From a virus: DNA of 55,154 nt. Below the pieces are notes generated by a model that saw nothing but the letters and a program-made list of their open reading frames with translations, was not told the origin of the DNA and made no database searches. The stretch is taken from IMG/VR virus record IMGVR_UViG_3300044714_000251, positions 1-55,154 of that record; one strand, written 5' to 3'. The translations under genes were made by a program, and so were the position numbers. Shown here one piece after another: positions 6,342 to 55,154 of this stretch (position 1 is its first letter; the number at the start of each line of letters is the position of its first letter).

Positions 6342-6348
6342 CCCCTTC

Positions 6349-6947: not shown

Positions 6948-6949
6948 CC

Positions 6950-7210
6950 ATGGCCAACAAGAAAGACGCAAAGAAGAACGTCCTCATCGCGGGAGGCGTA
7001 CTCGCCGCAGCGGGCGTTGGGTACTACCTCTACACTCAGTATGGCTCGGGCTCCTCGATCTCGAGTTCCAGCGGAGGCTCGGGAGGGGGCGGGGGTTCGG
7101 GCTCCGTTGGCGGAGGGACCACGAACGCCACGACGCTCGGATCGGGGGGTGGGAGTCAAGACTTGGGAAGCGCCGCATCGACGTCTTCCGGAGAGGACGA
7201 TGACGCATGA
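6950..7210 (+). CDS. One-TM protein with Gly/Ser tail
   Basis: MANKKDAKKN then a TM helix (VLIAGGVLAAAGVGYYLYTQY) and a Gly/Ser-rich tail ending EDDDA. 86 residues. Same architecture as the NP-TM family but lacking the NP dipeptide (KKNV instead). Confidence 0.7.
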   Translation: MANKKDAKKNVLIAGGVLAAAGVGYYLYTQYGSGSSISSSSGGSGGGGGSGSVGGGTTNATTLGSGGGSQDLGSAASTSSGEDDDA

Positions 7211-7407
7211 GTCGCCGAAGACGCTACGCCCAGAGAAATCCTCTCACCTCCACCGATGACCTCCTCATCGGGGTCGGCGTCATCGCCGCGCTCGCTCTCG
7301 GCGGGTACGTGATTTACGTGAAGTCCCAAGCGGCGACAGCCTCAGCCGCTGCAGACACGACCTCGGCGTCCATCAACATCCCGAACAACGGTACCGTCTT
7401 TTCATGA
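7207..7407 (+). CDS. NP-motif one-TM protein
   Basis: 66 residues: MSRRRRYAQRNPLTSTDDL, TM helix (LIGVGVIAALALGGYVIYV), short polar tail. ATGA overlap with both neighbours. One of the clearest members of the Arg/Lys-NP-TM family. Confidence 0.75.
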   Translation: MSRRRRYAQRNPLTSTDDLLIGVGVIAALALGGYVIYVKSQAATASAAADTTSASINIPNNGTVFS

Positions 7408-27035: not shown

Positions 27036-27403
27036 ACGGCGTAGGCTCTCCGACGGGACTCGGCATCACAGCACCGCCCGCCGCGATCAGCGGAGGGTAT
27101 GTGCCCCCGACGATTCACGCACAGCCGCTCCCCGCGCCCTCGTCCACGACCCCCACGACAGCACCCGCCTCAAGTGCTCTGACCGCACCAAGCTCGGCGC
27201 TCATGGGGAGCACATACCAAGGTCCTCGCCGCGGCACGGCCACGTGGGTTTACATTCTTGGGGGTGTCGCTGCGCTCGGAGTGATGGGCGCGCTCTATTG
27301 GGCGTTCATGCAGCCGGGGAACTCGCCGAGCGCGGCGGCGTCGGAGGGCTACCCGAAATCGAATCCGATGAGGCGTCGGCGACGTCGGCGACACAGGAAG
27401 TGA
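27032..27403 (+). CDS. One-TM protein with GLG tag and poly-Arg C-terminus
   Basis: 123 residues. SPTGLGITAPP near the N-terminus, a Pro/Ser/Thr-rich stretch, TM helix (WVYILGGVAALGVMGALYWAFM), then KSNPMRRRRRRRHRK: the NP plus Arg cluster now at the C-terminus, opposite to the other NP proteins. The poly-Arg tail may touch DNA. Confidence 0.7.
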   Translation: MNGVGSPTGLGITAPPAAISGGYVPPTIHAQPLPAPSSTTPTTAPASSALTAPSSALMGSTYQGPRRGTATWVYILGGVAALGVMGALYWAFMQPGNSPSAAASEGYPKSNPMRRRRRRRHRK

Positions 27404-28305
27404 ACCGGGGGCTCGGCAAGGGCTTCGCTCCGTCGGCCTCGGCGGCCGCTGCGGCCATGCCGGGGGCGAAGATTCGCCAAGAGTCGCATCCGCCGGGCGT
27501 TGCGGGAACCACATTTTCTCTGAAGGAGATGGCGAAGTACATCCGCGATGGCCGGAACGACCCCAGGATGATCGGGTGGGCAGGACGTGTCTTGGTGAAG
27601 GCAGGAAAGCCGAAGAGCGTCACGGCTCAGGCGCAGGCCATCCTGGACGAGATTCGGCGCGTGACGATGTATCTCCCCGACGGTGTCAACACGGAAAGAG
27701 TGACCGCCGCTCCGGTTTCGCTTTGCCTCGACGAGCACGGTCTCTGTCTCCCCGCAGGCGACTGCGACGATCGCTGCGTGTGTTTTGGCTCGGGCACGAT
27801 GGCGCTCGGCATTGAGACCATGGTGGTGGCCCAAGCCTATGACGGGAGCGGTCCCAACGTCCGAGCCACGCACGTGATCTGCGCGATTTTGGATCCGAGT
27901 ACGGGCTGGCAGCGTGTCGACCCGTCGACCGACGACTTCCCGGTTGGAAAGTCGTATCCTGCGACGAAGGAGTGGTGGATGGACCCGATCACAGGCACGA
28001 CAGCGTCAACCCCTGAGGGAGCGATGCAACCGCAGGCGAACCAAGAAGCCATGCGTGGCGACTTTATCGGCGTCGGTGCTGTGCCGCGCGGTCCGGTGGT
28101 CTACGGGCATCCAACGGGTCTCGGCGCCGTTCCGTTCGAGCACGCTTTCGGTGCAGTCGACGAGGGGTGCGAGCAAGGCCCCGCGGACGTAACCGCGGAT
28201 CTCACGCACGGCGACTGCCGGCAGAGGTTTCCTCTCTACGCTCCGCAGCCCATCGGGGTCGGAGACATCCCGGTGTTTCCGGAGTGGGTTCGACGTGGCC
28301 GATAA
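27400..28305 (+). CDS. Transglutaminase/papain-fold protein
   Basis: GTG start in a GTGA overlap. 301 residues. AGDCDDRCVCFGSGTMALG (Cys122), RATHVICAILD (His158) and WQRVDPSTDD (Asp174) match the Cys-His-Asp triad of transglutaminase-like domains. GxG motifs occur at the N-terminus (RGLGKGFAP) and three times near the C-terminus (IGVGAVP, TGLGAVP, IGVGDIP). It may be a protease, cross-linker or inactive structural version. Confidence 0.75.
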   Translation: MNRGLGKGFAPSASAAAAAMPGAKIRQESHPPGVAGTTFSLKEMAKYIRDGRNDPRMIGWAGRVLVKAGKPKSVTAQAQAILDEIRRVTMYLPDGVNTERVTAAPVSLCLDEHGLCLPAGDCDDRCVCFGSGTMALGIETMVVAQAYDGSGPNVRATHVICAILDPSTGWQRVDPSTDDFPVGKSYPATKEWWMDPITGTTASTPEGAMQPQANQEAMRGDFIGVGAVPRGPVVYGHPTGLGAVPFEHAFGAVDEGCEQGPADVTADLTHGDCRQRFPLYAPQPIGVGDIPVFPEWVRRGR

Positions 28306-28738
28306 GGCACCGACGATTCAAGCGGAGTCGAACCGCGTCATGTTCGAGATGGTCGACGGCAAGCTTGTGCGACTTCCGCCGTCGTACCGGACGCTTCACG
28401 ATCCGACGGGCACGGCGTTGCCGAAGTGCGACGTGTTCTTTGCCCCCATCAAGCGTACTTCACAAAAGGTCGACATGGGCCGCGCGGCGCGGCGTTACTT
28501 TGGTCCTGAACATCGAGGGGTCATCGCTATTCTTCCGCGTGTGAAAGACGGACCGTGGAAGGTGATCGGGAGGGTGGCCGTGATCTACTACGCGAGGCTG
28601 GGGAAACGGGCTCCGGGCGGCTTCAATCACCCGTTCAAATCGAGACAGCCCACACTCTCGAAGTCTTCGCGTGGATATTACAAGCTTTCGCTCGGACAAG
28701 GATGCTTGGTCGACGACCGAGGATACGTGTTCCCCTAG
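28295..28738 (+). CDS. Hypothetical 147-aa protein
   Basis: GTG start, overlapping the transglutaminase-fold gene. Beta-rich in the middle (GVIAILPRVKDGPWKVIGRVAVIYYARLGKRA). The stop lies about a dozen bases before the inferred IS end. No family recognised. Confidence 0.6.
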   Translation: MADKAPTIQAESNRVMFEMVDGKLVRLPPSYRTLHDPTGTALPKCDVFFAPIKRTSQKVDMGRAARRYFGPEHRGVIAILPRVKDGPWKVIGRVAVIYYARLGKRAPGGFNHPFKSRQPTLSKSSRGYYKLSLGQGCLVDDRGYVFP

Positions 28739-28835
28739 CGGAATCGTTCACCATTCTCCGGCGCGGAAGCTCGGTCCTTCAGGAGCCGAGAGGAAGCGCC
28801 GTCTTCTTGTGTTTCGTCTTGGTAGTGCTACGCCT

Positions 28836-29990
28836 ATGTCCGTGAAGCTCGTCGCGACCGTCAAGCTGCTCGTATCGCCCGAGGAGCGAGAGCGTCTACT
28901 CGCCACCATGCGTCGCGTGAACGAGGCGTGTTCCTGGCTGGCCGAGCGGGCATTTGAGCTTCAGTCCGCCGACAAGCTCCGGCTGCAAAAGCTCTACTAT
29001 CAGGACCTGCGCAACCACTTCGGCCTGTCCTCGCAGCACGCCGTGCGGACCATATCGAAGGTCTGCGAGGTCTACCGTCGCGACAAGTCCAGGCGCTACA
29101 CCTTCAAGCCGCTTGGCGCCATCGCCTACGACCAGCGCATCTACACGTTCAAAAACGGCCTCGACCGCGTGAGCCTTCTCGCACTCGACGGGCGCATCGT
29201 CGTGCCGTGCGCCGTCGGCGCCTACCATCGCGCTCGTCTCGAAGGTGTGCGTGGCCAAGCCGACCTAGTGTGCCGCAAAGGCAAACTATTCCTCTTCGTG
29301 ACCGTCGATGTTCCCGACGGCTCGCCCATTGATCCAGAGGGCTGGCTCGGCGTCGACCTCGGCATCCGCAACCTTGCCTTCGACTCGGACGGTGAGGCCC
29401 ACTCCGGCGAGCAAACGCTCGCATTGCGATCTCGTATCTCCAGGCTTCGCGCCGGTCTCCAGTCGGTCGGCACCAAGAGCGCCAAACGACATCTCCGAAA
29501 GCTCCGAAGGAGGGAGCGGAGCTTCCACGCCCACACCAATCACGTCATCAGCAAGTCGATCGTACGCAAAGCCAAAGACACCGGACGAGGCATCGCTCTT
29601 GAGGATCTCAAGGGCATCCGAGACCGGGTAACCGTTCGAAGGGCCCAGCGCTCGACGCTGCATTCGTGGTCGTTCTTCCAGTTGCGCTCGTTCATCACCT
29701 ACAAAGCCACGCTCTCTGGCGTGACTCTCGTGGCCGTGGACCCTCGCAACACGAGCCGAACGTGCCCTGAGTGCGGCAACATCGACAAGGCGAACCGCCG
29801 CTCGCAAGCGGAGTTCGTCTGTACCGGATGCGGCTTTGCTTCGCACGCCGATTGGGTAGGCGCGCGCAACATCATCCAGGGGACCAGTAATCGCCCCCAT
29901 AGGATCGGCTGTCAGGCTGGGTATCGAGCATGTTCCGTCGAGTCCTCAGCTATGCCAGGTCCAAAGCTCCGCCCTTTAGGGCGGGGTTGA
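28836..29990 (+). CDS. tnpB: TnpB RNA-guided nuclease
   Basis: 384 residues. RuvC triad intact: GVDLGIRNLAF (Asp174), GIALEDLKG (Glu256) and HADWVGARNI (Asp339). The zinc ribbon is CPECG (310-313) and CTGCG (329-332). TnpB cuts DNA next to the element's target motif using an RNA from the right end and helps retain the element. Its C-terminus runs almost to the right-end hairpin, so the guide-scaffold RNA probably overlaps the 3' coding part. Confidence 0.95.
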   Translation: MSVKLVATVKLLVSPEERERLLATMRRVNEACSWLAERAFELQSADKLRLQKLYYQDLRNHFGLSSQHAVRTISKVCEVYRRDKSRRYTFKPLGAIAYDQRIYTFKNGLDRVSLLALDGRIVVPCAVGAYHRARLEGVRGQADLVCRKGKLFLFVTVDVPDGSPIDPEGWLGVDLGIRNLAFDSDGEAHSGEQTLALRSRISRLRAGLQSVGTKSAKRHLRKLRRRERSFHAHTNHVISKSIVRKAKDTGRGIALEDLKGIRDRVTVRRAQRSTLHSWSFFQLRSFITYKATLSGVTLVAVDPRNTSRTCPECGNIDKANRRSQAEFVCTGCGFASHADWVGARNIIQGTSNRPHRIGCQAGYRACSVESSAMPGPKLRPLGRG

Positions 29991-30437: not shown

Positions 30438-30539
30438 TATGAAGCGCCGTGGCGACGACTACGTAGATCGCATGAACAGGTTTCGCGCCGGAGAACCGTC
30501 CGGTATTGCAAACAGTGAAACTTGTATTGCAAAGCAAAC

Positions 30540-30559
30540 TGATTCTTACGGTATTGCAC
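30540..30559 (+). promoter_or_regulatory. 20-bp element A, copy 4
   Basis: TGATTCTTACGGTATTGCAC, last base differing from the other copies. About 190 bases before the Arg-rich membrane protein gene. Confidence 0.5.
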
Positions 30560-30750
30560 GTAAGACGTCTCGACGAAAGAAGCGAAGGCCCTCCGCTTCG
30601 CTTTCGCCCGAGAAAACAAGCGCGCGCCGCAAAACAAGGCACGTCGTTGCAATACATCGTAAGCACCCCAGAAAGCGCTCTTCCAGAGGTTTGACGGGGC
30701 GATCTCAGGCGGGTACGGTCACGGAGTTATCCCAACAGGAGACTCGTTAC

Positions 30751-32115
30751 ATGCCGAAGTCGCGTCGCAAGTCCAGGGCTGCAAGGGGCCGTAAGCGAGA
30801 CGCCAAGGGACACTTCGTAAAATCTTCCGTTGCGGCGCCCAAGCGGCGCAGGCGGAGAGCACGTCGGTCGGCCGAGGCAACGGTGGCCGCCCCGAAGCGT
30901 CGACGAAGGACACGAAGGAATCCCTGGTACAAGCAACCGCGTCGGCACGCGAAGGCTGCGAAGAAGGGCTGGAGGAAGCGTCGCCGCACGCACGCGAAGC
31001 GTCGTCATGCCGCTCCGGCACGTCGGCGTCGCCGCGTGACACGAAAGAGCCGCACGATCATCGCCACCGGGCGAGGGCGTGCGCGCCGTCGGGGCTCACG
31101 TCGTTCGACCCCGATCAACATCAAGGTGTCCTTGGCTCCGAAGCGGAGGAAGGCGTCGCGAAAACGTCGCGCTTCTCCGAAGCGTCGCCATCACGCGCGC
31201 CGTCATCGTCACGCGCATTACACGCCGGCGTCGCATCAGCTCGCCGCGGATTCGTACGCGCTGTCGAACCCGCTCTCAGGTGGAGAGCTCGTCCTTCTCG
31301 CGCTGACGGGAACGATCGGGTACGGCGTGGCCGATTTCGTCGGTCGCTACATGGAGACGACCGCAACGTCGGGCGGAGCCGCGAACAGCGTCCCGACCGG
31401 CGCCACGGTGGCCAACGACGTGGCCACCACCGGTTGGCCCTCGTGGCAGGCTGGCCTGAGCCAGCTTGGCATCGCGGCGGTTCCGATCATCGGCGCATCT
31501 TTCGTGGACTCGCCGTGGGGTCGTGCTTCGCTCCAGGGCTTTGGCCTCGGCGCAGGGGCGGCTCTCTTCGGCAACCTGTTCCGAAACGCGATGGCGTCGC
31601 TCATCGGGAGCACCGCTCTCGGTCAGCAGCTCTATCTCGCCGAGTACGAAGCCCAGGCTCAGATGGGCACGGGCACGGCGGCCACGACCACCACGGGCCT
31701 TTCGGGTGTCCCGCGCGGTCGTCGGATGGTCCAAAAGGGCGTTGGAACGGCGGTCGCTTCGATGGTGCCCGGCAACGTGCCGAGCACGGTCGTGGTGCCT
31801 CGGATTTCGCAGCCGGTGACCCGGAATCCGGTCGCACCGTCCTCGAACATCCCGTCCTACAACGCAAGCACGCCTCCCGGCACGTCCCTCCAGATGCCGC
31901 CTGGCATCGTGACGAACGGCGGGGACGTGGTCGCCTCCCCTCCTCCCGGCACGCCGATTCCCGGCGGCGCTCAGGCGGGAGCCTCCTGTGCACCTTGCTC
32001 GTCAACGATGGGCGGGATCGCGGGGACCTACGACACGGCCGTGAACGCGATTCGTGACGAGTCCTGCCTCGGGAAGATTCCCGGGGGCTTCTACGGGATG
32101 TTCCCGGAGAACTGA
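30751..32115 (+). CDS. Arg/Lys-rich (protamine-like) membrane protein
   Basis: 454 residues, caggag upstream. Residues 1-160 are extremely basic (repeated KRRRR, APKRRRR, RRNPW, histidine-rich RRHHARRHRHAH). SNPLSGGELVLLALTGTIGYGVADF then repeats the NP-TM pattern, and a second apolar segment (LGIAAVPIIGASF...LQGFGLGAGAALFGNLF) follows. The Pro/Thr-rich end has CAPC. It could hold packaged DNA against an internal membrane. Confidence 0.7.
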   Translation: MPKSRRKSRAARGRKRDAKGHFVKSSVAAPKRRRRRARRSAEATVAAPKRRRRTRRNPWYKQPRRHAKAAKKGWRKRRRTHAKRRHAAPARRRRRVTRKSRTIIATGRGRARRRGSRRSTPINIKVSLAPKRRKASRKRRASPKRRHHARRHRHAHYTPASHQLAADSYALSNPLSGGELVLLALTGTIGYGVADFVGRYMETTATSGGAANSVPTGATVANDVATTGWPSWQAGLSQLGIAAVPIIGASFVDSPWGRASLQGFGLGAGAALFGNLFRNAMASLIGSTALGQQLYLAEYEAQAQMGTGTAATTTTGLSGVPRGRRMVQKGVGTAVASMVPGNVPSTVVVPRISQPVTRNPVAPSSNIPSYNASTPPGTSLQMPPGIVTNGGDVVASPPPGTPIPGGAQAGASCAPCSSTMGGIAGTYDTAVNAIRDESCLGKIPGGFYGMFPEN

Positions 32116-32184: not shown

Positions 32185-33453
32185 ATGTACAAGCAAGCCA
32201 GCAGCCGATCGATGCAGGGTCACCCGAGCCGCCAGATTGGCCTTGGGCAAGCGCCGAGCGACAACGTCGTCAACAGCGTTCTGTCGTGCGGATTCACGCA
32301 AGTCCCCGTCATCGAGTACGTGACGTGGACGCTCGACTTGCCCGTCCCGGACGCGGCGATCGACGCGACCTTCGGCGACGAGATCGACGTCCTCCAGAAC
32401 CCCAAGTCGGTCGCCGGCGTCGAGGACGTGGACTCAAGCTTTGTCATCAACGGCATTCTCCAAGTCGACATGCTCGTCATCGGGTTCGGCGTGCACGGCT
32501 TCGCGGAGCCCACGAACGGCGCCCAGATCGGCAACTACGTCAACCCGGCTCCCACGGCCGGCGCCGTGAACCCGTCCCCCGACAGCTACACCCAGAACGA
32601 CGTCATCAACGGCGCGCTCGGCGCGGACATCGGCACGGGAGGTGTGGCGGGTTCCTCGACGATCACCCCCGCGGTGCTCGAGTGGGGCGTCTGCGCGCAG
32701 AACGCGCTCTGGCACCTCATGAACGCGTACCAGTTCCAGTGGATCATGCAGCAGCGTTACCTGCTCATCAACGAGCTCGCGGCGGATGTGGCCTACTTCG
32801 GAAGCTACGCCGAGGCGGTTGCTGCGGGTTCCTCGAGCGCGGCGTTCCAGCGCCTCGTGCGACGCGTGAACAACAAGTACGCGTCTCTCGGCGCCCCGGG
32901 CGCGTTCCTTCCGATCAACGCCCAGCGCATCGGAAGCACGACGACCCTGACGACCACCAACAAGGGCATGTTCCACCCGACGCGAGCCTACGATCTCTTG
33001 GACGAGACGATCGGCGGTCTTCGCGCGCAGGGCATGAACGGCATGCTTCAGCCGTTCCGGAAGCTCTTCAAGCCGGTCCTCCTCGAGAAAGGCATTCCGA
33101 TCGGCATGCTGCTCCGCCAGCAGGACCAGTACCACGCGACGCTCATGCAGCAGTACCTGTCGCAGTCGGATTCTCTCGGCGGGACCGTGTCGACCATCTC
33201 GGTCGGCCCGACCACGAGCGGCCTGACCTCGACGACGGCCAACGAGTTCCTGGAGCTCACCTTGGATGCGACCCCGCTCGCGGTGCCGCAGCAAGTCCAG
33301 ACCGACCGAGTCCTCCTGAAGGGCGGCGCGCTGCAACTCGCCATCCTCATCAAGGGCTTCGAGGTGTGGGGCCCCTGGAAGCAGTATATCCTGAACAACC
33401 TCGTCCCGGCGGGCGCGGTCGGAACCGCGGCTTCGGCCGGATCGGCGGGCTGA
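32185..33453 (+). CDS. Candidate major coat protein
   Basis: 422 residues, strong aggaga site, and a tight hairpin right after the stop, as expected of a highly expressed gene. The N-terminus has RQIGLGQAPSDN. Beta-rich N-terminal half (VPVIEYVTWTLDLPVP, GILQVDMLVIGFGVHGF), helical middle (ALWHLMNAYQFQWIMQQRYLLINELAADVAYF), beta C-terminus. No HK97-type signature seen. A double jelly-roll is possible by length but unproven. Confidence 0.55.
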   Translation: MYKQASSRSMQGHPSRQIGLGQAPSDNVVNSVLSCGFTQVPVIEYVTWTLDLPVPDAAIDATFGDEIDVLQNPKSVAGVEDVDSSFVINGILQVDMLVIGFGVHGFAEPTNGAQIGNYVNPAPTAGAVNPSPDSYTQNDVINGALGADIGTGGVAGSSTITPAVLEWGVCAQNALWHLMNAYQFQWIMQQRYLLINELAADVAYFGSYAEAVAAGSSSAAFQRLVRRVNNKYASLGAPGAFLPINAQRIGSTTTLTTTNKGMFHPTRAYDLLDETIGGLRAQGMNGMLQPFRKLFKPVLLEKGIPIGMLLRQQDQYHATLMQQYLSQSDSLGGTVSTISVGPTTSGLTSTTANEFLELTLDATPLAVPQQVQTDRVLLKGGALQLAILIKGFEVWGPWKQYILNNLVPAGAVGTAASAGSAG

Positions 33454-33531: not shown

Positions 33532-34155
33532 ATGACGACCGCCAATCAACAGCCTCGCCCGGTAGACATCGAAAGACTCGCGATGGTCGACCCGATCGCG
33601 GCCTACGGCATCGTCCTCGGGATTCCACAGATTCCACTGAGCATGAACTGCTCGGCTTCGTTCTCCTCGTTCGCGCTCGACCAGCAGCCCGTGGAGGGAG
33701 ACCTGGACACGACGATCGCCCAGAGGACCTGGGTCGACAACATCCAGTTTTCGCTCCAGCTCCCGAACGTCTTCGCGAACGACGTGTTCCAGAGTCAGTA
33801 CGTGGCGATGCTCAAGCAGTCGCCTGGCATTTCGATCCAGATGATCGTCCAGGGGGGGCCTCGCTACCTCGTGTCGCCGGAGTTCACTCCGCTCGAAAAC
33901 TTCGTGAACGTCCTCAACGGGACGCGCTGGACTTCTGGATGGCCGCTCTTCAAGCAGCAGAGCATCCAGGTGTTCTTTCAGCTCACGCAAGCGCCGTCGG
34001 GGTTGTCGCCAAACGCTCCGCCCTACAACGTGACGCTGACGTTCAACTGTTGGCAATTTTTGGATCACACAGTGGACGAGGTCAGCGTCGACGTGGCTGC
34101 CCGCAAACTCCGTGACCTAGGCTTCTTCGTACCCAAGGCCGTAGAGTGCCCCTGA
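33532..34155 (+). CDS. Beta-rich candidate capsid protein (207 aa)
   Basis: ATG with ctggag upstream. Alternating beta pattern throughout (MNCSASFSSFALDQQPVEGDLDTTIAQRTWVDNIQFSLQLPN, ISIQMIVQGGPRYLVSPEF, VTLTFNCWQFLDH). The size suits a single jelly-roll (minor coat or vertex). No family recognised. Confidence 0.5.
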   Translation: MTTANQQPRPVDIERLAMVDPIAAYGIVLGIPQIPLSMNCSASFSSFALDQQPVEGDLDTTIAQRTWVDNIQFSLQLPNVFANDVFQSQYVAMLKQSPGISIQMIVQGGPRYLVSPEFTPLENFVNVLNGTRWTSGWPLFKQQSIQVFFQLTQAPSGLSPNAPPYNVTLTFNCWQFLDHTVDEVSVDVAARKLRDLGFFVPKAVECP

Positions 34156-34168: not shown

Positions 34169-35101
34169 TTGCGTAGAGGTCGATCAGAGCTTGTCACCGT
34201 AGGTCAGAACCCGAATCTCCAGCTCGTTGGCTCCGGGCCAGAAGGGGGGCCGTACGACCTCGGCCTGATGATCGGGCCGAATGGCGGCGCGCGCATTCGG
34301 CAGACGTTTCTCCTGGCAACCAAGACCTTCGGCGCGCACACGCGCGGGTACTTGAGAGGTCTGCGGCAGTACTTGACGATTGGTACCTACCTGCCTGTCT
34401 CGGGGACCGCGCAAGGGTACCTGCTCGAGACGCCGGTGGTCACGCCGACGTGGAAGTTTTCGGACGGGAACGTGATGTGGATGCTCCGGAAGATTCCGGG
34501 ATCCAAGAGCCACTTCACGCCGAACGCGAGCAACGGTCCTGGCATTTCGTTCCGCACCGCAAACACTCCCTCGCTCCTCTTCGAGACGGTCACGGGGAAT
34601 CCTCCGTACGTGACCTCGACCCCGCCCTACGGCGGAAGGCCTCCGGGCAACATTCTCGTGCCCGAGCTTGGAAGGTTTTTCGACCTCCGTTCGTCCTGGG
34701 CAGAGCCCCTCGAGCTCGACATTGAGATCTCGGGGCCTTGCACGATTGCGTTTTTCGCGAGCGTTCAGCAGACGATCCCGATCTCCGCCGGCGGGACGCA
34801 AATCGTCCCCCCGGCCACTCCGGTCATTTCCACGATCGCGGGAGCGGCGCCTGAGGACGCGTTTCTCCAGACCTACTCCTCGAGCGGCACGCCCGTGAGC
34901 TACATTCGCATTGCGGGTGCGCTCCAATTCGAGTACGTCGACTTCGCGCCGAGTGGCATGCCGAAGACCTACCGCTCCGCGTCGGTCGGGGATCGGCTCA
35001 CGAGCGACCGCGCGGTCACGGGAGACAACGAGATCCGGCAGAGCGGCGCGATCACGAGCGGCACGGGCGTGCCGATCGATTGCGAAGGCGGAAAGAAATG
35101 A
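34169..35101 (+). CDS. Beta-rich candidate capsid/vertex protein (310 aa)
   Basis: TTG start with ggagg upstream. Arg-rich N-terminus and VTVGQNPNLQLVG, then a mostly beta protein (ARIRQTFLLATKTFG, PLELDIEISGPCTIAFFASVQQTIPI, VSYIRIAGALQFEYVDFAPSG). Directly follows the other two coat candidates. No family recognised. Confidence 0.5.
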   Translation: MRRGRSELVTVGQNPNLQLVGSGPEGGPYDLGLMIGPNGGARIRQTFLLATKTFGAHTRGYLRGLRQYLTIGTYLPVSGTAQGYLLETPVVTPTWKFSDGNVMWMLRKIPGSKSHFTPNASNGPGISFRTANTPSLLFETVTGNPPYVTSTPPYGGRPPGNILVPELGRFFDLRSSWAEPLELDIEISGPCTIAFFASVQQTIPISAGGTQIVPPATPVISTIAGAAPEDAFLQTYSSSGTPVSYIRIAGALQFEYVDFAPSGMPKTYRSASVGDRLTSDRAVTGDNEIRQSGAITSGTGVPIDCEGGKK

Positions 35102-36152: not shown

Positions 36153-36890
36153 ATGTCCTGCTCCGCACACCCGGTTGTTGACGAGATCTCTCTTGCGCTG
36201 TGGATGAGCTCGACCATGCCGCCCGAACTCCCTGCCCCGCCCGATCCCCGCACCCTTCAGGGGATTGGTGCGGCCATCTCCGAACTCTCGAGACAAGCCA
36301 AGGATGGTTTCGAAGGTCTGCGCCGTGACGTCAAGGGGGTCCGCGAAGACGTGCTCGAGGTCCGCGAAGAGCTGCGCGACGTGCGGAAAGAGCAAATGCG
36401 CGCAGACATCCGGATGGACAAGGTCGAAGAGCGCCTTGAAATTGTAGAGGAGTCCCCGGCGAAGACCGAGGCCTCCGAAACCGCGGCCCGAGCCGCCGAG
36501 GCGGTTGCGCAGGCTGCGGCGGAGGCGGCGAGGTCGGTGGCGAGCGCGGCTTCTCTCGCGCTCAAGCAAGAGCGACGGGAGCGACAAGCGGAGCGACCCA
36601 GTAAGATCTCTCTCGAGACGGCGAGCAAGGTCGTTCTGAACTCGATGCCTCCGCCGAAGTACGATCTCGGCGTGCAGATCTCGGACTCGGGCGTTCACAT
36701 GAAAATGCCGACGGATGAGTACAAGCGTCTCGTGACGCAGAACCAAGCCGCGGCAGCTCTTCGGCGCGAGAAGTGGGTCCTTCACAAGGGCTCCGTGCTT
36801 TTGATGATCGTCGCCTCTGCGTTTTTGGGAGGGGCTGCCAAGTCGTGCGCTTCGGCGCTGGTGCATTCGCACGTGGAGAATCGACCATGA
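36153..36890 (+). CDS. Coiled-coil protein with C-terminal TM
   Basis: 245 residues. A long heptad region (about 30-130; FEGLRRDVKGVREDVLEVREELRDVRKEQMRADIRMDKVEERLEIVEE) leads to an Ala/Glu/Arg-rich helix, a small folded part (YDLGVQISDSGVHMKMPTDEYKRL) and a C-terminal TM (VLLMIVASAFLGGAAKSCASAL). A stalk or spacer anchored in a membrane; could carry the spike. Confidence 0.7.
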   Translation: MSCSAHPVVDEISLALWMSSTMPPELPAPPDPRTLQGIGAAISELSRQAKDGFEGLRRDVKGVREDVLEVREELRDVRKEQMRADIRMDKVEERLEIVEESPAKTEASETAARAAEAVAQAAAEAARSVASAASLALKQERRERQAERPSKISLETASKVVLNSMPPPKYDLGVQISDSGVHMKMPTDEYKRLVTQNQAAAALRREKWVLHKGSVLLMIVASAFLGGAAKSCASALVHSHVENRP

Positions 36891-38206
36891 ACCGAGCTCT
36901 TTTGGCTACCGTTGCTCTCCTCGCCGCCGAAGGCATCTATCGTCCCGTGGGAGGAGGTGGGGGTGGCAGCGGGATCACGCAGCTCACAGGGGACGTCACT
37001 GCGGGACCTGGTTCCGGTGCGGTTCCGGCAACCGTGGCTCGAATCAACGGGGCGACGGTGCCCGCGGCAGGTGCGCTGACGACAGGCAACGTGCTCCAGG
37101 TGACGGGCACGAGCGCTCTCGGCTATGCGGCCGTCAATCTCGCAGGGGGGGCGGGTTACATCACGGGCAACCTCCCCGTCACCAACATCGCCCCGGCGGG
37201 AACGAACGGATTTGTTCTCACGACCACCGGGGGCGTGACGGGGTGGGCCGCAGCTACGGGCGGAAGCGGCATTACGGCACTCACCGGAGACGTGACAGCC
37301 TCCGGGACAGGATCGGTGGCTGCAACGGTCGTACGCCTCACGGGCACAGGAGGCGTGGTCACGGTCCCCACGGCCACACTGAACTTCGGCACGAACCCCT
37401 CTACGACGGGGGCCATCAACCTCGCCAACGGAACAGGCATCTACCAGAGAAACGCGGCAAACACCGCCGACATCCGCTTCCTGGACATGGACACGGTCAA
37501 CGAGATCCTCATCGGGGATTACGGCGCCGCCAACGTGACTCTCGTCTCGAATTCGGGGCTCGTCGTCGATACCGCTTCGGGAGGTGTGTTCTCGTATGAG
37601 GGGACGACGCTGTCGACAAGCGCCGGAAACGCCGCTTTCAACGGAACAGGCTCTTTTGGAGGAGGTTCTGGCGTTATCGGTCTTCTGACCGCCGCGACTC
37701 AACCCACAACACTCCCGGCGGGACTTGTGCTCGCCGAGGGAGCAACAGGGCTTTTTGCCTATCAACCCGGAAACTCGTTCAATCGGCGGTCCTTCTGTCC
37801 TGTCCCCCAAGGAACCGCAGCCTCGCAAGCCGCAACCGTGGTGGACTTTTTCGGTTTTGCTTCGACGACGACGGGCGCGACGACCACGACCATCGTGACG
37901 ATTCCTTTGCCCGGGTCCAGCAACTCTATTGGGATGATCGTGACGGCCGTCGGCCGGCAAACCTCGGGGACCGTGGGCGCAACGACTGTCATCTCCCAGA
38001 CGGTCGGATTCAAGAACATCGCCGGCACCGTCACGGCCTTGACGACTCAGGGCACGGCCACCGTGGCGTTCGATACGGGCTTCACGGGCGGCTCAATCGG
38101 GTACGCGATCTCGGGTACGAATGTGGAAATTCAAGTGAATCAAGGGGGAACTGCGGCTGGCAATGCGGATTGGACTTGTTACGTCACGGCGTGCGTGTAC
38201 AACTGA
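36887..38206 (+). CDS. Spike/fibre-like protein 1
   Basis: 439 residues. N-terminal hydrophobic MNRALLATVALLAAEG, a Gly linker, then GITQLTGDVTAGPGSGAVPATVARINGATVPAAG, a fibre repeat well known from phage receptor-binding proteins, partly repeated at about 124-145 (GITALTGDVTASGTGSVAATVVRL). The C-terminal beta domain (about 310-439, TTTIVTIPLPGSSNSIGMIVTAVGRQTSGT) may be the receptor-binding head. Confidence 0.75.
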   Translation: MNRALLATVALLAAEGIYRPVGGGGGGSGITQLTGDVTAGPGSGAVPATVARINGATVPAAGALTTGNVLQVTGTSALGYAAVNLAGGAGYITGNLPVTNIAPAGTNGFVLTTTGGVTGWAAATGGSGITALTGDVTASGTGSVAATVVRLTGTGGVVTVPTATLNFGTNPSTTGAINLANGTGIYQRNAANTADIRFLDMDTVNEILIGDYGAANVTLVSNSGLVVDTASGGVFSYEGTTLSTSAGNAAFNGTGSFGGGSGVIGLLTAATQPTTLPAGLVLAEGATGLFAYQPGNSFNRRSFCPVPQGTAASQAATVVDFFGFASTTTGATTTTIVTIPLPGSSNSIGMIVTAVGRQTSGTVGATTVISQTVGFKNIAGTVTALTTQGTATVAFDTGFTGGSIGYAISGTNVEIQVNQGGTAAGNADWTCYVTACVYN

Positions 38207-38214
38207 ACGCAGCC

Positions 38215-38610
38215 ATGCACTACGTTCAAATACCCGCCTCGATTCGACTCCGCGACCAAGTTTCTAAGGTCGAAGGTGAGACGGTGTCCTTCCAGCGCTA
38301 CGCGCACGATCTCTGGCTCAATGACGCGCGGTGGGAGACACCCAAGACGAACCTTCTTCGACTCATGGTCGTCCTTCCCCTCCTCGGAAGAGCGCCCGGC
38401 GAATGGGTCGAACTCGAGGATCAGGACTGGGTCATCCTGAAGAGCATCATCGACATGCCGGGTGTCGGATCCGGGGGGGCTCCTACCCTGTATTCACCTC
38501 TCGTTCAGATTCAGGTGGGTCCGACGTTCGAGCGGGCTATCCTGGACTCACCGACCAAAGACCCTCGAGCGGTGTTGAACGGAGCAAAGGAAGACCATGG
38601 CCAAGCATAG
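38215..38610 (+). CDS. Hypothetical 131-aa protein
   Basis: MHYVQIPASIRLRDQVSKVEGETVSFQRYAHDLWLNDARWETPKTNLLRLMVVLPLLG. Compact, mixed alpha/beta, between spike and small proteins. Residues 1-60 recall tail- or connector-type small proteins but no family is recognised. Confidence 0.6.
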   Translation: MHYVQIPASIRLRDQVSKVEGETVSFQRYAHDLWLNDARWETPKTNLLRLMVVLPLLGRAPGEWVELEDQDWVILKSIIDMPGVGSGGAPTLYSPLVQIQVGPTFERAILDSPTKDPRAVLNGAKEDHGQA

Positions 38611-38803
38611 CGGCATCCAGCGACGCAATCGTTTTCAGGCTTCTCTTCTCGCGAACGAGGCGGGCTACCGAGCGCTTCAGTCGACACTCTCGACGAGCAA
38701 GAAGATTGCCGGCGTGACCGCGGCCGGTCTTCAGGGGCCTGGAGTGCAGTCGCTCGCGAAGGTGGCCGGAGCGCTCAACGCGATCGGATTCGCCGCTCAG
38801 TAA
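38597..38803 (+). CDS. Hypothetical 68-aa helical protein
   Basis: MAKHSGIQRRNRFQASLLANEAGYRALQSTLSTSKKIAGVTAAGLQG. Basic N-terminus and an amphipathic or weakly hydrophobic C-terminus. Overlaps the previous gene by 14 bases. Confidence 0.55.
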   Translation: MAKHSGIQRRNRFQASLLANEAGYRALQSTLSTSKKIAGVTAAGLQGPGVQSLAKVAGALNAIGFAAQ

Positions 38804-38806
38804 TCT

Positions 38807-38826
38807 TGATTTCAAGGGTATTGCAA
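38807..38826 (+). promoter_or_regulatory. 20-bp element A, copy 5
   Basis: TGATTTCAAGGGTATTGCAA, 29 bases before the ATG at 38856. Followed at 38825-38843 by an 8-bp hairpin with a 3-base loop that pairs the ggagga of the likely ribosome site. Confidence 0.6.
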
Positions 38827-38855
38827 ACTCCTCCTGGAGGAGTTACCGTTCGGGG

Positions 38856-39185
38856 ATGTTCGACGTCAACGAGTGGTGGCACGTCCTTACCAACGGCAAA
38901 GAGTTCGTGGGCAAAGCCGATGGGAAGAAGCTCTCCGACGTCCAGGAGTGCATCACCCAGACCGGCATAGTTCAGGATGCGCAGGGGCGTGCGCGTCCAC
39001 ACAAGGTCGTGATGACTTTCCCCGCACGTGTCCGAACGCTCGACATCCCTGTGGGTGCGCTTTGGATTTCGATCGCGGCCTACAACGACAAAAACGAATG
39101 GGCGAAGACCATCGAGTCAACCGAACGTCTCGCTCTCGAGCAAAGAGCGCAGGAGTCTGGACTTCAGATCGTTCGAGGGCACTGA
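38856..39185 (+). CDS. Hypothetical 109-aa protein
   Basis: MFDVNEWWHVLTNGKEFVGKADGKKLSDVQECITQTGI then a beta-rich half (HKVVMTFPARVRTLDIPVGALWISIAAY). No family recognised. Has its own element A and an RBS-pairing hairpin, so it may be regulated apart from the virion operon. Confidence 0.6.
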   Translation: MFDVNEWWHVLTNGKEFVGKADGKKLSDVQECITQTGIVQDAQGRARPHKVVMTFPARVRTLDIPVGALWISIAAYNDKNEWAKTIESTERLALEQRAQESGLQIVRGH

Positions 39186-39403
39186 TGCCGCCGCCGCGTC
39201 TCCCGCCGATGGCCGAACGGTTCGCGCGCTCGCTCACGCAGCAGCTCGCCGAAATCCTCACGAACGCGCTGGCAGGGGCTCTGGATGACGGTCTTGAACG
39301 CGTGGAGGATAAGGTTCAGGAGGGCCTCGGACGCATCAAAAGAGCCCGTGGAGTTGCGCAGAAGAGAGCCCGTCGCGGGCGGGTGACGTCGCGCGCGAGG
39401 TGA
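39185..39403 (+). CDS. Small basic helical protein
   Basis: 72 residues, TGATG overlap. Helix (ARSLTQQLAEILTNALAGALDDGLERVEDKVQEGLGRIKRA) then an Arg-rich end (KRARRGRVTSRAR). No family recognised. Confidence 0.55.
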   Translation: MPPPRLPPMAERFARSLTQQLAEILTNALAGALDDGLERVEDKVQEGLGRIKRARGVAQKRARRGRVTSRAR

Positions 39404-39411
39404 AGTAAGCT
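39383..39411 (+). promoter_or_regulatory. Promoter GTGACG-N17-TAAGCT, leaderless
   Basis: GTGACG (39383-39388), 17-bp spacer, TAAGCT (39406-39411), seven bases to the ATG at 39419. Confidence 0.6.
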
Positions 39412-39418
39412 CGTCCCT

Positions 39419-40135
39419 ATGCCGGACGTGCTGGCCCGACGGGCAAAGGTGATTGCAGACGAGGCCCTTCTCCGTGCCGTCCATGGCGGAGGAGGTGGGG
39501 GCGGCGGCATCACGCAACTCACGGGAGATGTCACGGCGGGTCCCGGCTCGGGTGCAGTTGCGGCCATAGTGGCTCGAGCCAACGGGGCGACGATTCCGGC
39601 GGCGGGCGGACTCACTCCAGGCAACGTTCTTCAAGTTACCGGAGCGAGCGCGCTCGGGTATGCGCCGGTCAACTTGGCTTCCGCGGCCTCTGTTACAGGG
39701 CTTCTTCCGGTCGCGAACATCGCGCCAGCGGGAACGAACGGGTTCATTCTCACAACGACAGGTGGCGTGGCCGTATGGGCCGCCAATGGAGGCGGATCCG
39801 ATCTCACCCCGCGCGTGACGGTCAATCATGGGAACTCTCCTTTTACGGCCCTTCCTGGATACCGGCACATTGTCGACGAGTCTGAAGGCGCCGTAACGAT
39901 CAACCTTCCTTTGGGATCTCCGGCGGGGACAGACATCGCGATCAAAATCCTCACAGGACCCACGACGAACGGGCTAACCGTAAATGCCCCCTCTGGAGGA
40001 ACCGTCGAACAGTCACTCGAGGAGGCGGGGAGCGGTGGGGTTTACGCATCCTCGGCAACGTTCACCTCCGCGCAGGACATCGGAACCTCATTCACGTGGG
40101 AGTGTGATGGGTCCAACAATTGGGAGGCCGTCTGA
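39419..40135 (+). CDS. Spike/fibre-like protein 2
   Basis: 238 residues. After MPDVLARRAKVIADEALLRAVHGG it repeats the fibre module of the 36887 gene (GITQLTGDVTAGPGSGAV...NGATIPAAGGLTPGNVLQVTGASALGY...IAPAGTNGFILTTTGG). The C-terminal 110 residues differ (beta-rich, YRHIVDESEGAVTINLPLGSPAGTDIAIKI). Shared stem with different heads suggests alternative receptor binding. Confidence 0.75.
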   Translation: MPDVLARRAKVIADEALLRAVHGGGGGGGGITQLTGDVTAGPGSGAVAAIVARANGATIPAAGGLTPGNVLQVTGASALGYAPVNLASAASVTGLLPVANIAPAGTNGFILTTTGGVAVWAANGGGSDLTPRVTVNHGNSPFTALPGYRHIVDESEGAVTINLPLGSPAGTDIAIKILTGPTTNGLTVNAPSGGTVEQSLEEAGSGGVYASSATFTSAQDIGTSFTWECDGSNNWEAV

Positions 40136-42840
40136 TGCGTTTGCTTTGGATTTTCCTTCTGGCTTTCGTTTCGGCATGTTCGGCGCGCAGCATCCCCGTG
40201 CCTGCACCCGAGACCAAAGACGCCACAGTAGTGGTAGAGCCTCCGCCTCCGACCGTTCCAGGACGTCTCCTTGGAGCAAACGGGAATTTTGCATTTCCCA
40301 TCGGCCCCGCCTCTCTGAGCGGATTCGACGCCGGAACATACCCCAACCCGATCATCCCCGAAGGCTCGCAAGGTACGTTTTACCCAGGATCAGTCTCGAA
40401 TCTTGTCGACCAGAACTCGCTCATCTGGGGTGACGTGACGCAGCCTGAATGGCAAGGTGTGAGTTGCTATCTCACGGGTCCTACGGGCACGCCACAACTC
40501 ATTGGAGGCGCGGGGCAGAGCCCCGACGGTTCGCAGGACGCGGTCTGGGTCAACGAAGGTGCGGTCTCGTCGGGGGTGCTTGCACTCTCCCACGACGCTT
40601 TCGTCCCGACCGGCGTGACGAGTTTCAATTTCGAGATCGACGTGATGAACGCGCCTGGGGGGAGCGCAGTTAGCGTCCCCATGATCATCCTGAATTCGAA
40701 TTCAGGATGCGGTGGCAATGGTGCGATAGCGACAAGCAACACGAGTACTTGCGTCACAACGAACTCATGGCAAACGTGCCGACTTGCATCGGGGACGGTG
40801 GCTCACGGCACGGCCTATACGGTTCAGATCCCGCTCAACTACTCCACCCTTGGGACTGCGGGGGCGACCTTTCTCATCGCGCGCGCGCGCATCGTACCGA
40901 CCGGGTCGATTTCGCCCCCGCTCTTTCGATCCCCTGAGTCCTCACCCGCCGGAAGCTTCTATCGCTACGAAGCGAGCCCTGTTCTTTGGGACAACATCCA
41001 CTCGGATTTTGTTGGGGTTGGCGGAGTGGGCGGAGTCGGCCTGGCTCCCTTCCGGCAGTACTTGTTTCAGAGCCCATTTGCCCGGATGGTCTTCCAATCC
41101 AACGGACAGACTCAGGTCGGTCTAGAGGTTTTGAACGCGGGACTCACGAGTACGCCCAACCAACAAGTGGGCGTCAATGTGAACGGACGTCCGTACGCGA
41201 GCTTTGTCGGCGCGACGTCGCCCATGGTCGAGGACGCTACAACCCTGACGCTTCCCTCGGGGAACAACGAGATCGAATTCGTCGGCGGCGAACAAGGTTA
41301 CATCGGGCTCGGAATCTATCCAGAGAGCGCCGGCATCAGCGGTGAGTTCGTCCGAGCGGCCTACTCGACCACACCTCTCACGGTGCTTCCTCCGCCAAAA
41401 CCCTCGCGAACCGTGGTGGTGTGGGGGGATTCGAAGGAGGCCGGGATCTGGAGCACGAATCCTCCTGCCCAGGGATTTCCGGTTCTGTTGAGGCAGATGC
41501 TTGGTGGTCAAACGAGCACGGTCATCGAGGCCGTCGGGTCGAGCACCCTGAACAACGACACCAACACTCCAGCGCTTATCACCCAACTCGCTCAGCGCAT
41601 GGCCCGTGCGCGACCAGACATTCTTCTGTCGGTCATCGGCCGCAACGACTGGGCCGATTCCACGATGACACCCACCGTCTTTACAGCAACACTCGAGGCA
41701 GCATGGGATGCCATTCACGCAGCCACTCCAAGCACGCAGATCGTGGCCGTCACCTGGTGGCTCGAGTCCGTTGCACAAGAGTCCTCGACGATCAGTGGGT
41801 TCACGCTCGCAAACTTTCGTGCGGCGGAGCAGAACGCGTGCACGGCGAGGCCTACCTACTGCGTGTTCATGAACGCATCGACGGGGATTCCAAACTGGAA
41901 TCAAGCCTCGGGAGCTGGATCTAGCCTCTACACCGACGGCGTCCACCCCTCGAACTACGGATCGGGACAAGCCGCCAGCTACGTAGGTCTTCAGGTCTCG
42001 CATCTTCTGCCTGCATCGTCTTCGCTTCAGAGCTGGTACCCAGCGGAAACGGCCCAGACATGCTTGGTTCAGGCGCAGAACGTCGCGGCGGGGAGCCACG
42101 ATCTTTGCATCTACGCAACCGATCAGGCGAATGTCATCTACTACGGAGACCAGTACAACAACGGCGTCTACATCAACTCGAGCGCGAGTGTCACGCTTGG
42201 CATTCCTGGCGCCGACGCTCTTACACTTGTCCGCGGGACGGGCGGAGGGACGCTGGAATTTACGGGAAACATTTTCCAGTTTTCGAACGTCGCAGCCTCG
42301 GCGAACGCAATCGTCAACCAGAGTCAGCCCATCACCGATATCCCAGCAACTCCACTGACGGTTCAGGCGCAAGGAGCTTCGACAGGGGCTGTCACCAATG
42401 TAGTGGGAGGGGTCACGCAAGTCTTGGCCGGGCAGGGGACCACGCCCGCGAACAACGGTGGCATCTTGTTGGGGTATGGGCTCCAGACAGCTCCCACGCC
42501 CTTTTTCAGTTACGGCACCGGCGGAAACGGATGGATCCCGCAGACCTCTTCACAGTCGCTCGCCACGACACCAGTCACCCTAACATCCACCGAACTCTTG
42601 ACGCCCTATGTGATCTACACAGGAGCTCTCTCGGCAAACCCCACCGTCGTGAATCTACCAAACGTCGCCGGCATGTGGTTCATGGACATTTCCGCGGTCA
42701 CGAACACCACGGGCAACGCCATTGAGTTCGTGAGCGGTTCGGCCACCTGCTCTACGATTCCAGGGGCTTTGACGGTCGCGAACGATCTCGTCATCGTCCA
42801 TACGACGGGCGCAAACGGCATCACCTGCGGACTCCTGTGA
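40135..42840 (+). CDS. Spike-type lipoprotein with SGNH hydrolase domain
   Basis: 901 residues. Lipoprotein signal MRLLWIFLLAFVSACS (lipidation at about Cys15). A beta-rich region precedes the SGNH/GDSL esterase: VVVWGDSKEAG (catalytic Ser about 428), LSVIGRNDWAD (block III Asn), TDGVHPSNYG (Asp/His). The last 260 residues are fibre-like beta. It probably deacetylates or de-esterifies a surface polysaccharide at adsorption, held in a membrane by its lipid. Confidence 0.8.
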   Translation: MRLLWIFLLAFVSACSARSIPVPAPETKDATVVVEPPPPTVPGRLLGANGNFAFPIGPASLSGFDAGTYPNPIIPEGSQGTFYPGSVSNLVDQNSLIWGDVTQPEWQGVSCYLTGPTGTPQLIGGAGQSPDGSQDAVWVNEGAVSSGVLALSHDAFVPTGVTSFNFEIDVMNAPGGSAVSVPMIILNSNSGCGGNGAIATSNTSTCVTTNSWQTCRLASGTVAHGTAYTVQIPLNYSTLGTAGATFLIARARIVPTGSISPPLFRSPESSPAGSFYRYEASPVLWDNIHSDFVGVGGVGGVGLAPFRQYLFQSPFARMVFQSNGQTQVGLEVLNAGLTSTPNQQVGVNVNGRPYASFVGATSPMVEDATTLTLPSGNNEIEFVGGEQGYIGLGIYPESAGISGEFVRAAYSTTPLTVLPPPKPSRTVVVWGDSKEAGIWSTNPPAQGFPVLLRQMLGGQTSTVIEAVGSSTLNNDTNTPALITQLAQRMARARPDILLSVIGRNDWADSTMTPTVFTATLEAAWDAIHAATPSTQIVAVTWWLESVAQESSTISGFTLANFRAAEQNACTARPTYCVFMNASTGIPNWNQASGAGSSLYTDGVHPSNYGSGQAASYVGLQVSHLLPASSSLQSWYPAETAQTCLVQAQNVAAGSHDLCIYATDQANVIYYGDQYNNGVYINSSASVTLGIPGADALTLVRGTGGGTLEFTGNIFQFSNVAASANAIVNQSQPITDIPATPLTVQAQGASTGAVTNVVGGVTQVLAGQGTTPANNGGILLGYGLQTAPTPFFSYGTGGNGWIPQTSSQSLATTPVTLTSTELLTPYVIYTGALSANPTVVNLPNVAGMWFMDISAVTNTTGNAIEFVSGSATCSTIPGALTVANDLVIVHTTGANGITCGLL

Positions 42841-43240: not shown

Positions 43241-43486
43241 ATGGCCCGTCGACGTCGCTCCGCACACCGCCACTATGCCCGCCCGAACCCTTTGAGCGAC
43301 ACCGAGCTCATTGTAGGGGGACTTGTAGGGGTCGCTATCCTCAGCCTCGGCGGATATTTGGTCTACACGCACTACAACGCCCTTCCGGCCGGATCGACCG
43401 CACCGGGCGGGACGGTATCGAGCGTCTCGACCGATGCGAACGGGAACACGCTCATCAACGGGTACCCCGTTGCGTCGTCGAGCTAA
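43241..43486 (+). CDS. NP-motif one-TM protein
   Basis: 81 residues: MARRRRSAHRHYARPNPLSDTE, TM helix (LIVGGLVGVAILSLGGYLVYTHY), Ser/Thr/Gly tail. Clear member of the Arg/Lys-NP-TM family. Confidence 0.75.
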   Translation: MARRRRSAHRHYARPNPLSDTELIVGGLVGVAILSLGGYLVYTHYNALPAGSTAPGGTVSSVSTDANGNTLINGYPVASSS

Positions 43487-43664
43487 GTCCTACCGGCGCA
43501 AGAACCCCTGGCCGGACACTGAGACGCTCGTCTTCGGTGCTGGGTTCGTGGCGATTTCTGCGCTTGGCATCGCGATGATCGCCGATGCGATCGGTTCGTC
43601 GGAGGACACCATGACGGATCTCGGGGACACCTCCACTCTCGCGACACTCGCCACGGTGGTTTGA
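43470..43664 (+). CDS. NP-motif one-TM protein
   Basis: TTG start inferred inside the previous gene. 64 residues: MRRRAKSYRRKNPWPDTE, TM helix (TLVFGAGFVAISALGIAMIAD), acidic/Thr tail. Shares SYRRKNP with the gene at 44083. Confidence 0.65.
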   Translation: MRRRAKSYRRKNPWPDTETLVFGAGFVAISALGIAMIADAIGSSEDTMTDLGDTSTLATLATVV

Positions 43665-44086
43665 TGATGGCCGGGCTCGTCTTGGGGGCGCTCGCGCTCG
43701 GGCAGCTCCCGCCCGCGGAGGATGCGCCCCAGGGGCTCGGAACCATCCCGGTCGAGCCGCACGTCTATGGACAGTGGCCTTTCGAAGGTTTCCCCGAACA
43801 AGTCGTGCTGAACGGGCGGACGTTCAATCTCGCGAAATGGTCCTGGCCGCTCTACAGCGGCGTGCAGCAGCAATACCGCGAGGCGGTGCCGACGAACTCG
43901 CAGCACCTGATGATTTACGACGATCTCTCGTACGACGTTCAGCACATGGACGAGATCAACCCGGACGCGGGGAACCCCCTTCAGCACGCGGTCGTCGACG
44001 CTCCCGGCGCTACCTCGGCGGCGATGGCCGCTCTTGGCTTCGCGCTTGGGCTCGTCGGGGGTATTCTGCTCCTGAGGACGCTTTGA
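43664..44086 (+). CDS. Hypothetical membrane-linked protein with GLG motif
   Basis: 140 residues from the ATG at 43664 (TGATG overlap). N-terminal apolar segment (MAGLVLGALALG), QGLGTIPVEPHVYGQWPF, a soluble middle with LAKWSWPLYSGVQQQY, and a C-terminal TM (AAMAALGFALGLVGGILLLRTL). Carries the GxG motif. Confidence 0.65.
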   Translation: MMAGLVLGALALGQLPPAEDAPQGLGTIPVEPHVYGQWPFEGFPEQVVLNGRTFNLAKWSWPLYSGVQQQYREAVPTNSQHLMIYDDLSYDVQHMDEINPDAGNPLQHAVVDAPGATSAAMAALGFALGLVGGILLLRTL

Positions 44087-44355
44087 AGAGCTACCGGCGC
44101 AAAAACCCCTACGAGCGGGCGAACCTCTCCGGCGTCGATCTCGCCGAGGAGGATCTCATCCTGATCGGTGTTGGCGTGACGGTCGTCGGCGTTGTCGGGT
44201 ACCTCCTGGTGACGAAAATTCTCGAAGCGCTCCCCTCCGGCGCAGAGGTCGCCGCTGCGCTGAACAGCACGATGGGTGGGAGCACGAACAACGGAAACGA
44301 CGTCCCCCCCGGGGAAGACCCGAACGAGCCTGAGAACCAGGTGGGCTATGAGTAA
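44083..44355 (+). CDS. NP-motif one-TM protein
   Basis: TTG start in a TTGA overlap. 90 residues: MKSYRRKNPYERANLSGVDLAEED, TM helix (LILIGVGVTVVGVVGYLLV), tail ending in acidic/Asn residues. Confidence 0.7.
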   Translation: MKSYRRKNPYERANLSGVDLAEEDLILIGVGVTVVGVVGYLLVTKILEALPSGAEVAAALNSTMGGSTNNGNDVPPGEDPNEPENQVGYE

Positions 44356-44500
44356 GCGCCGAAAGGGCCGCCCCAATCCGCTCGACCCCAACGACTGGCT
44401 TAAGCTCGCGGTCGCGGGCGGCATCGTGTTCGCGATTGCTGTGGCCCTCTACAACAAAGCGAACGGCATCGGTGACTTCGCTCCCGAGGAGCCTTCATAA
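44348..44500 (+). CDS. NP-motif one-TM protein (50 aa)
   Basis: MSKRRKGRPNPLDPNDW, TM helix (LKLAVAGGIVFAIAVALYN), short acidic tail. The shortest member of the NP-TM family. Overlaps its neighbour. Confidence 0.7.
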   Translation: MSKRRKGRPNPLDPNDWLKLAVAGGIVFAIAVALYNKANGIGDFAPEEPS

Positions 44501-44712
44501 TGGCCGCTCCCATCCGTTACACCGACAAGTCGACGATCACGATCGACGACAACGCCAAGACGCTGCTCATGCTCGGAGCCGTGGTGCTTGCCGGTGCAGC
44601 GACTTACCTCCTCGTGAGTCGCGTGGCGACGGCCATCTCGCCCGCGACGCTCACGCCGAGCCCGCTCCCGACGAGCGATCCGACGCCCGACCTTCCCGTC
44701 GTCCAGACCTAA
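44500..44712 (+). CDS. One-TM protein with Pro/Thr tail
   Basis: 70 residues. IRYTDKSTITIDDNAK precedes a TM helix (TLLMLGAVVLAGAATYLLV) and a Pro/Thr-rich tail. Lacks the basic NP start. Last gene of the run. Confidence 0.65.
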   Translation: MAAPIRYTDKSTITIDDNAKTLLMLGAVVLAGAATYLLVSRVATAISPATLTPSPLPTSDPTPDLPVVQT

Positions 44713-54700: not shown

Positions 54701-55154
54701 GCATCGTAGAGATACGAAGTCGATTCGATAGCAGCAAGATTCTCTGGTCCGGAGAGGCGGCGTCGGTAAAGGACGGCTTGCTAAAGGCCGTGGCCGCGCG
54801 CGCCAACCTCGCGGACGCCAACCTCGCGGGTGCCGACCTCGCGGGTGCCGACCTCGCGGACGCCAACCTCGCGGACGCCAACCTCGCGGGTGCCAGCCTC
54901 GCGGGTGCCTACCTCGCGGACGCCAACCTCGCGGGTGCCGACCTCGCGGGTGCCAGCCTCGCGGACGCCAACCTCGCGGGTGCCAGCCTCGCGGGTGCCG
55001 ACCTCGCGGGCGCCGACCTCGCGGGCGCCGACCTCGCGGGTGCCGACCTCGCGGGTGCCAGCCTCGCGGACGCCAACCTCGCGGGTGCCAGCCTCGCGGG
55101 TGCCTACCTCGCGGGCGCCGACCTCGCGGGTGCCTACCTCGCGCGCGCCTACCT
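54697..55154 (+). CDS. Pentapeptide-repeat protein, 5' part (open at window end)
   Basis: GTG start in a GTGA overlap. SIVEIRSRFDSSKILWSGEAASVKDGLLKAVAARANL is the usual N-terminal cap, then at least 23 pentapeptides. From 54772 it matches base 1 onward, then diverges in unit order. It is the same gene as the fragment at the window start. Confidence 0.85.
   Translation, partial: MSIVEIRSRFDSSKILWSGEAASVKDGLLKAVAARANLADANLAGADLAGADLADANLADANLAGASLAGAYLADANLAGADLAGASLADANLAGASLAGADLAGADLAGADLAGADLAGASLADANLAGASLAGAYLAGADLAGAYLARAY
54802..55154 (+). repeat. 15-bp tandem repeat, 23 or more units
   Basis: Same units as 31-300 but a different number and order. Both copies contain the rare AYLAR-AYLA pair near their end, so they look like two length variants of one array. 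Confidence 0.95.

Follow-up and report, generated by a model that had tools for sequence, protein, structure and literature searches.

The virus record analysed here, from IMG/VR, is 55,154 bases long (hereafter the window, meaning this whole stretch of DNA). An open reading frame lies on its forward strand at 30751–32115, where the original prediction placed it, and encodes 454 aa. The frame does not begin at 30751, however, but continues upstream without an in-frame stop to an ATG at 30439. The full open reading frame of 558 aa (30439–32115, forward strand) comprises in order an N-terminal linker, a basic region, a three-helix membrane domain and a Pro/Ser/Thr-rich tail, and aligns over its full length in G000–G005. 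The N-terminal extension of 104 aa (30439–30750, forward strand), with a weak Shine-Dalgarno sequence at its start, evolves fast (31–41% amino acid identity with close relatives) and carries the motif YxDxMNxFRxG, kept in all six sequences aligned from 30439 (the window and five relatives) with Y8, M12, F15 and R16 at fixed places. Because this motif is common to all six, the 558-aa product is likely. In more distant members the N-terminal part mostly starts MGLYDDRL, often with an extra conserved segment (SLLF...GIRAVVARE) for which no Pfam or PHROG match was found.

Position 30751 is probably a second, nested start, yielding a short product of 454 aa (30751–32115, forward strand). Its ATG sits at the boundary of the basic region, nine bases downstream of an AGGAG Shine-Dalgarno sequence (30737–30741, forward strand; duplex −7.4 kcal). 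A duplex of −5 kcal or stronger accompanied the boundary ATG in 25 of 28 homologues, whereas of the remaining internal ATGs 45 of 368 had one (p = 2e-12); in L006, L011 and L015 the selection rule took an ATG that is probably not the one at the boundary. The same strength was reached at 6 of 28 upstream starts and 12 of 16 coat starts. In a synonymous-codon control, the strengths of the nested Shine-Dalgarno sequences, taken site by site, mostly did not exceed what the local amino acids would lead one to expect. The element is nevertheless retained though the amino acids encoded upstream differ (QETR, RKRIS, KQGVT, FGRKP, TSTRGP), which argues for selection on the Shine-Dalgarno sequence itself, and these sequence features make it probable that a long and a short nested product are both made.

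The region that begins at the nested start (30751–31221, forward strand) is protamine-like, being rich in closely spaced Arg/Lys and nearly free of acidic residues for more than 100 aa. Its first 160 residues, predicted to be densely packed with Arg, Lys and His, indeed contain 51 R and 19 K (70 K/R), 9 H and 2 D/E. When all six frames are scanned for stop-free stretches 150 codons or longer, the net charge of +67 per 150 residues ranks first, ahead of +51 for the runner-up; the K/R/H density, likewise taken per 150 aa, is 0.51, double the 0.25 of the called gene of the window that comes next. Comparison of the basic part with L002 gave 0.26, 0.17 and 0.62 differences per codon at positions 1, 2 and 3, respectively, and in both the basic and the membrane parts the changes relative to L002, L003 and L004 fell mainly at codon position 3. 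The two parts have therefore been maintained as protein, and the basic region is under purifying selection and is not compositional noise.

Downstream of the basic region, hydropathy alone gives the two apolar segments that had been predicted, whereas an AlphaFold2 model gives three confident helices, all on the forward strand: helix 1 at 31279–31362 (pLDDT blocks of ∼93 over most of its length), helix 2 at 31444–31497 (80–94) and helix 3 at 31513–31605 (∼92–95, falling to 81 at the end). The model, built from a 25-row alignment, has a pTM of 0.45 and a low-confidence tail. Almost all of its structural neighbours are integral membrane proteins, with Z-scores that a common helical arrangement can reach, and the apolar segments are moderately hydrophobic (Kyte-Doolittle maxima of ∼1.2–1.9). 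The Pro/Ser/Thr-rich tail (31669–32112, forward strand) contains three Cys and was mostly modelled at low confidence; in many members two or more Cys lie near its end. By the positive-inside rule the basic head is expected to be cytoplasmic, and loop 2 and the pre-helix segment have a net positive charge, as would be expected with the N-terminus in the cytoplasm and the C-terminus outside. We infer from the model and these charges that the protamine-like region is joined to a three-helix anchor that would insert into a membrane in this orientation.

The recurrence within the frame of an NP motif ahead of an apolar segment was also correctly predicted (SNPLSGGELVLLALTG at 31264–31311). Of 351 NP dipeptides in six genomes, 8.3% had a basic stretch on one side and an apolar segment on the other, compared with 0.4% of all dipeptides; no other dipeptide counted scored as high, and the enrichment over the average dipeptide is ∼21-fold. 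Among 29 cases, 45% had D or E as the fifth residue following NP. Many small proteins encoded at 2569–7407 and 43241–44712 of the window share this layout, in which a basic head is followed by NP, an acidic position roughly five residues later and a single apolar helix. Judged by sequence pattern, basic-NP-x-x-x-x-D/E-apolar is a signature common to the putative small membrane proteins of this virus group, and the SNPLSGGE motif before helix 1 (31264–31287, forward strand) fits it. We take the layout to be reminiscent of type IV prepilin leaders.

The gene that follows (32185–33453, forward strand) encodes a 422-aa candidate major capsid (coat) protein, probably a jelly roll, whose alignment drew together 33 related metagenomic viral loci. 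The focal gene had been placed just before it, and this arrangement recurs at a distance of 56–271 bp in 30 of the 33 loci, the other three being cut by contig ends. The membrane domain is present in 27 of 27 related records, and a search with this domain alone returned 16 loci, all in coat-bearing contigs. In none of these three sets of loci and records were the basic and membrane parts seen separately; the predicted fusion of a protamine-like region to a membrane domain beside the coat gene is thus kept as a unit across the virus clade, and the gene could serve as a marker for finding more such viruses. The focal proteins of the window and of several relatives lacked Pfam and PHROG matches, tblastn against isolated phages found no relative of the focal protein or the coat, tblastn against plasmids found no match to the coat, and among open-licence PMC papers we found no literature on this clade. 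Two scans of genome contigs for an integrated copy yielded none in the first and only a 24-residue match in the second. This coat-like match (L057, 10001–10072) falls within a gene for a MocR-like regulator in a Rhodobacterales MAG, where 58 of 72 bases agree with the window and the surrounding reading frame is unrelated, and we judged it a probable assembly chimera and rejected it as a host trace.

The coat model is beta-rich (pTM 0.71), and its best structural matches are mainly jelly-roll capsid chains at Z ∼5, including those of SPV1, iridovirus, PR772/PRD1 and STIV. The top match, to the SPV1 capsid chain, is weak (Z 5.5 over 114 residues), as are those to P3 of PRD1/PR772 (Z ∼5.2) and to STIV (5.2). 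Several of these weakly matched viruses have internal membranes (SPV1, PRD1/PR772, STIV, FLiP). A Foldseek search of the coat against PDB and BFVD gave no significant match. On the model, these similarities favour a tailless capsid, whose protein may be a single or a double jelly roll.

Two conserved structural candidates follow the coat gene on the same strand, one of 207 aa (33532–34155) in 27 of 27 related records and one of 310 aa (34169–35101) kept in all six genomes compared. Further downstream, 36887–42840 encodes repetitive fibre-like proteins and a 901-aa protein bearing a GDSL lipase, which are candidates for host attachment. On the upstream side of the focal gene, a conserved 147-aa gene (28295–28738) is separated from it by an IS605 OrfB/TnpB-type gene (28671–29990; Pfam OrfB_IS605 and Cas12f1-like_TNB). 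The counterpart of the 147-aa gene ends beside the focal gene in L003–L006, so the IS605 OrfB/TnpB-type gene looks like a recent insertion. A conserved transglutaminase-looking gene has its window counterpart within 27298–28305, with no Pfam match; in L021 (1827–3824) it appears by eye to be split by an intein-like insert.

The 27 related records range from 53 to 128 kb, and at least 9 of them carry exact terminal repeats of 87–127 bases. The window opens with 58 bases that it repeats close to its end, and a pentapeptide-repeat gene spans the record ends (1–750 and 54765–55154), which together suggest a circular genome broken inside repeats. Conserved genes include those for a Sak4-like protein, a ResIII helicase and a RadC protein. 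FtsK_SpoIIIE (PF01580) exceeded the cut-off in none of the 27 records, with a single 11-bit match below the cut-off in G010, and the control for this FtsK-type search found rings in 14 of 14 genomes. Terminase_6N (PF03237) and Phage_portal (PF04860) were likewise found in 0 of 27 records, and neither terminase nor portal appeared among the top 25 families listed for the proteins of 100 relatives or in the Pfam scan of the window; the missing motor is thus a result for two motor families and general scans, which a diverged motor could escape.

Taking the locus as a whole, the reading we prefer, to which we give a probability of about 40%, is that the focal protein links the virion core to the membrane in a clade of large, tailless viruses that probably have an internal membrane. 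The disordered protamine-like region would neutralise and condense the viral genome, the condensed genome would be anchored to the viral membrane by the three-helix domain, and the tethered nucleoprotein would be enclosed as membrane and capsid form around it; we propose that a virion built in this way would need no packaging motor. If both starts are used, the N-terminal segment of the long form could touch another assembly partner, and the short form would act as condenser and anchor only. This reading draws directly on how the protein is built, on its conservation and position ahead of the coat gene, and on the lack of a detectable packaging ATPase or terminase in the 27 records; its DNA binding, membrane insertion, orientation and presence in the virion, like the packaging mechanism, are proposed on that basis. 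In its favour are the conserved composition of the basic region under purifying selection, the constant pairing of basic and membrane parts in coat-bearing loci, a three-helix model with nearly all membrane-protein neighbours, a coat weakly resembling jelly-roll capsids, several of them from internal-membrane viruses, and the want of Terminase_6N, FtsK_SpoIIIE over cut-off and Phage_portal across 27 records. Precedents without a motor exist in the Odin group (PMC5894146) and the Portogloboviridae (PMC8459092). Against it count the moderate hydropathy of the apolar segments, the possibility of a diverged motor, the low scores of the coat jelly roll (Z ∼5) and the cytoplasmic placing of the head, which would come to face the capsid in PRD1-like budding. 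The broader proposition of an undescribed, high-rank clade of tailless bacterial membrane viruses of 53–128 kb, loaded without a motor by a membrane-anchored, protamine-like protein in two forms, is tentative and, on present indications, doubtful.

The orientation argument is the foundation of the chief rival, which we consider somewhat unlikely: a capsid-to-membrane linker or internal scaffold whose basic head points outward to engage acidic lipid head groups and the inner face of the coat, shaping the membrane under the capsid, with any contact with DNA incidental. In PRD1 the membrane of the virion is described as arising by pinching into the cytoplasm (PMC6356626), so that the cytoplasmic face becomes the capsid side, where a head placed by its charge, in keeping with the N-in, C-out topology suggested by loop 2 and the pre-helix segment, would touch capsid or lipid head groups and not the genome. 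Wherever a locus extends far enough to tell, the coat gene adjoins the focal gene, and SPV1 has subcapsomer proteins between membrane and capsid (PMC8459092). However, ∼155 Arg/Lys-rich and nearly acid-free residues exceed what contact with lipid or capsid would need, and with no motor detected, DNA loading would still require other means. We think it unlikely that the protein is instead a non-virion anchor tethering replicating or segregating viral DNA to the host membrane, presumably in the manner of phi29 p16.7: a basic head with a membrane domain suits such a role, as do the extra N-terminal segments of some members, but the gene keeps strictly to a position among coat and structural genes and not replication genes. 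A genome-delivery protein, entering the host with the DNA, breaching the host membrane with its helices and guiding the DNA through, would agree with the basic, membrane-active architecture and the cysteine-bearing tail of many members; this option is nonetheless quite improbable. Finally, although GC-rich DNA commonly gives rise to spurious Arg-rich frames, several listed open reading frames of the window among them, a chance basic frame fused to an unrelated one is refuted by the codon-position pattern, conservation in 30 loci and the outlying charge.

Returning to the tethered condenser, its basic region resembles protamines, histone H1 tails and adenovirus core proteins, which are Arg/Lys-rich and disordered with few acidic residues; no family match for the focal protein came from Pfam, PHROG or tblastn of isolated phages, and we know of no such protein fused to a multi-helix membrane domain. 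The large terminase and portal of Caudoviricetes were found in 0 of 27 records. PRD1 and other Tectiviridae and Vinavirales package by an FtsK-HerA type ATPase, PRD1 through a unique vertex (PMC6356626, PMC5894146); the present viruses recall them in the weak match of the coat fold to P3 and in their probable membrane proteins, but not in an ATPase over cut-off. The Odin group of double-jelly-roll viruses has no detectable packaging ATPase and a conserved gene directly before the capsid gene that has been proposed to act in packaging (PMC5894146). We find the same two features here, although the upstream protein of Odin is small and without conserved polar residues, unlike the basic focal protein, and its genomes are the smallest of a 7–18 kb set, in contrast to records of 53–128 kb. 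The Portogloboviridae member SPV1 combines an icosahedral jelly-roll capsid and internal membrane with circular dsDNA wound with nucleocapsid protein VP1 (PMC8459092). Its capsid protein is the top, though weak, structural match of our coat, but SPV1 is an archaeal virus of ∼20 kb, and VP1 is described as forming a nucleoprotein filament, in contrast to the membrane fusion predicted for the focal protein. Prokaryotic double-jelly-roll viruses are reported at roughly 7–18 kb and are mostly ATPase-packaged (PMC5894146). For a probable jelly-roll clade of several times that size, in which no motor is recognisable, one must ask how 50–130 kb of DNA come to be encapsidated, and the putative membrane-fused condenser beside the coat gene offers one concrete and testable protein for DNA loading.
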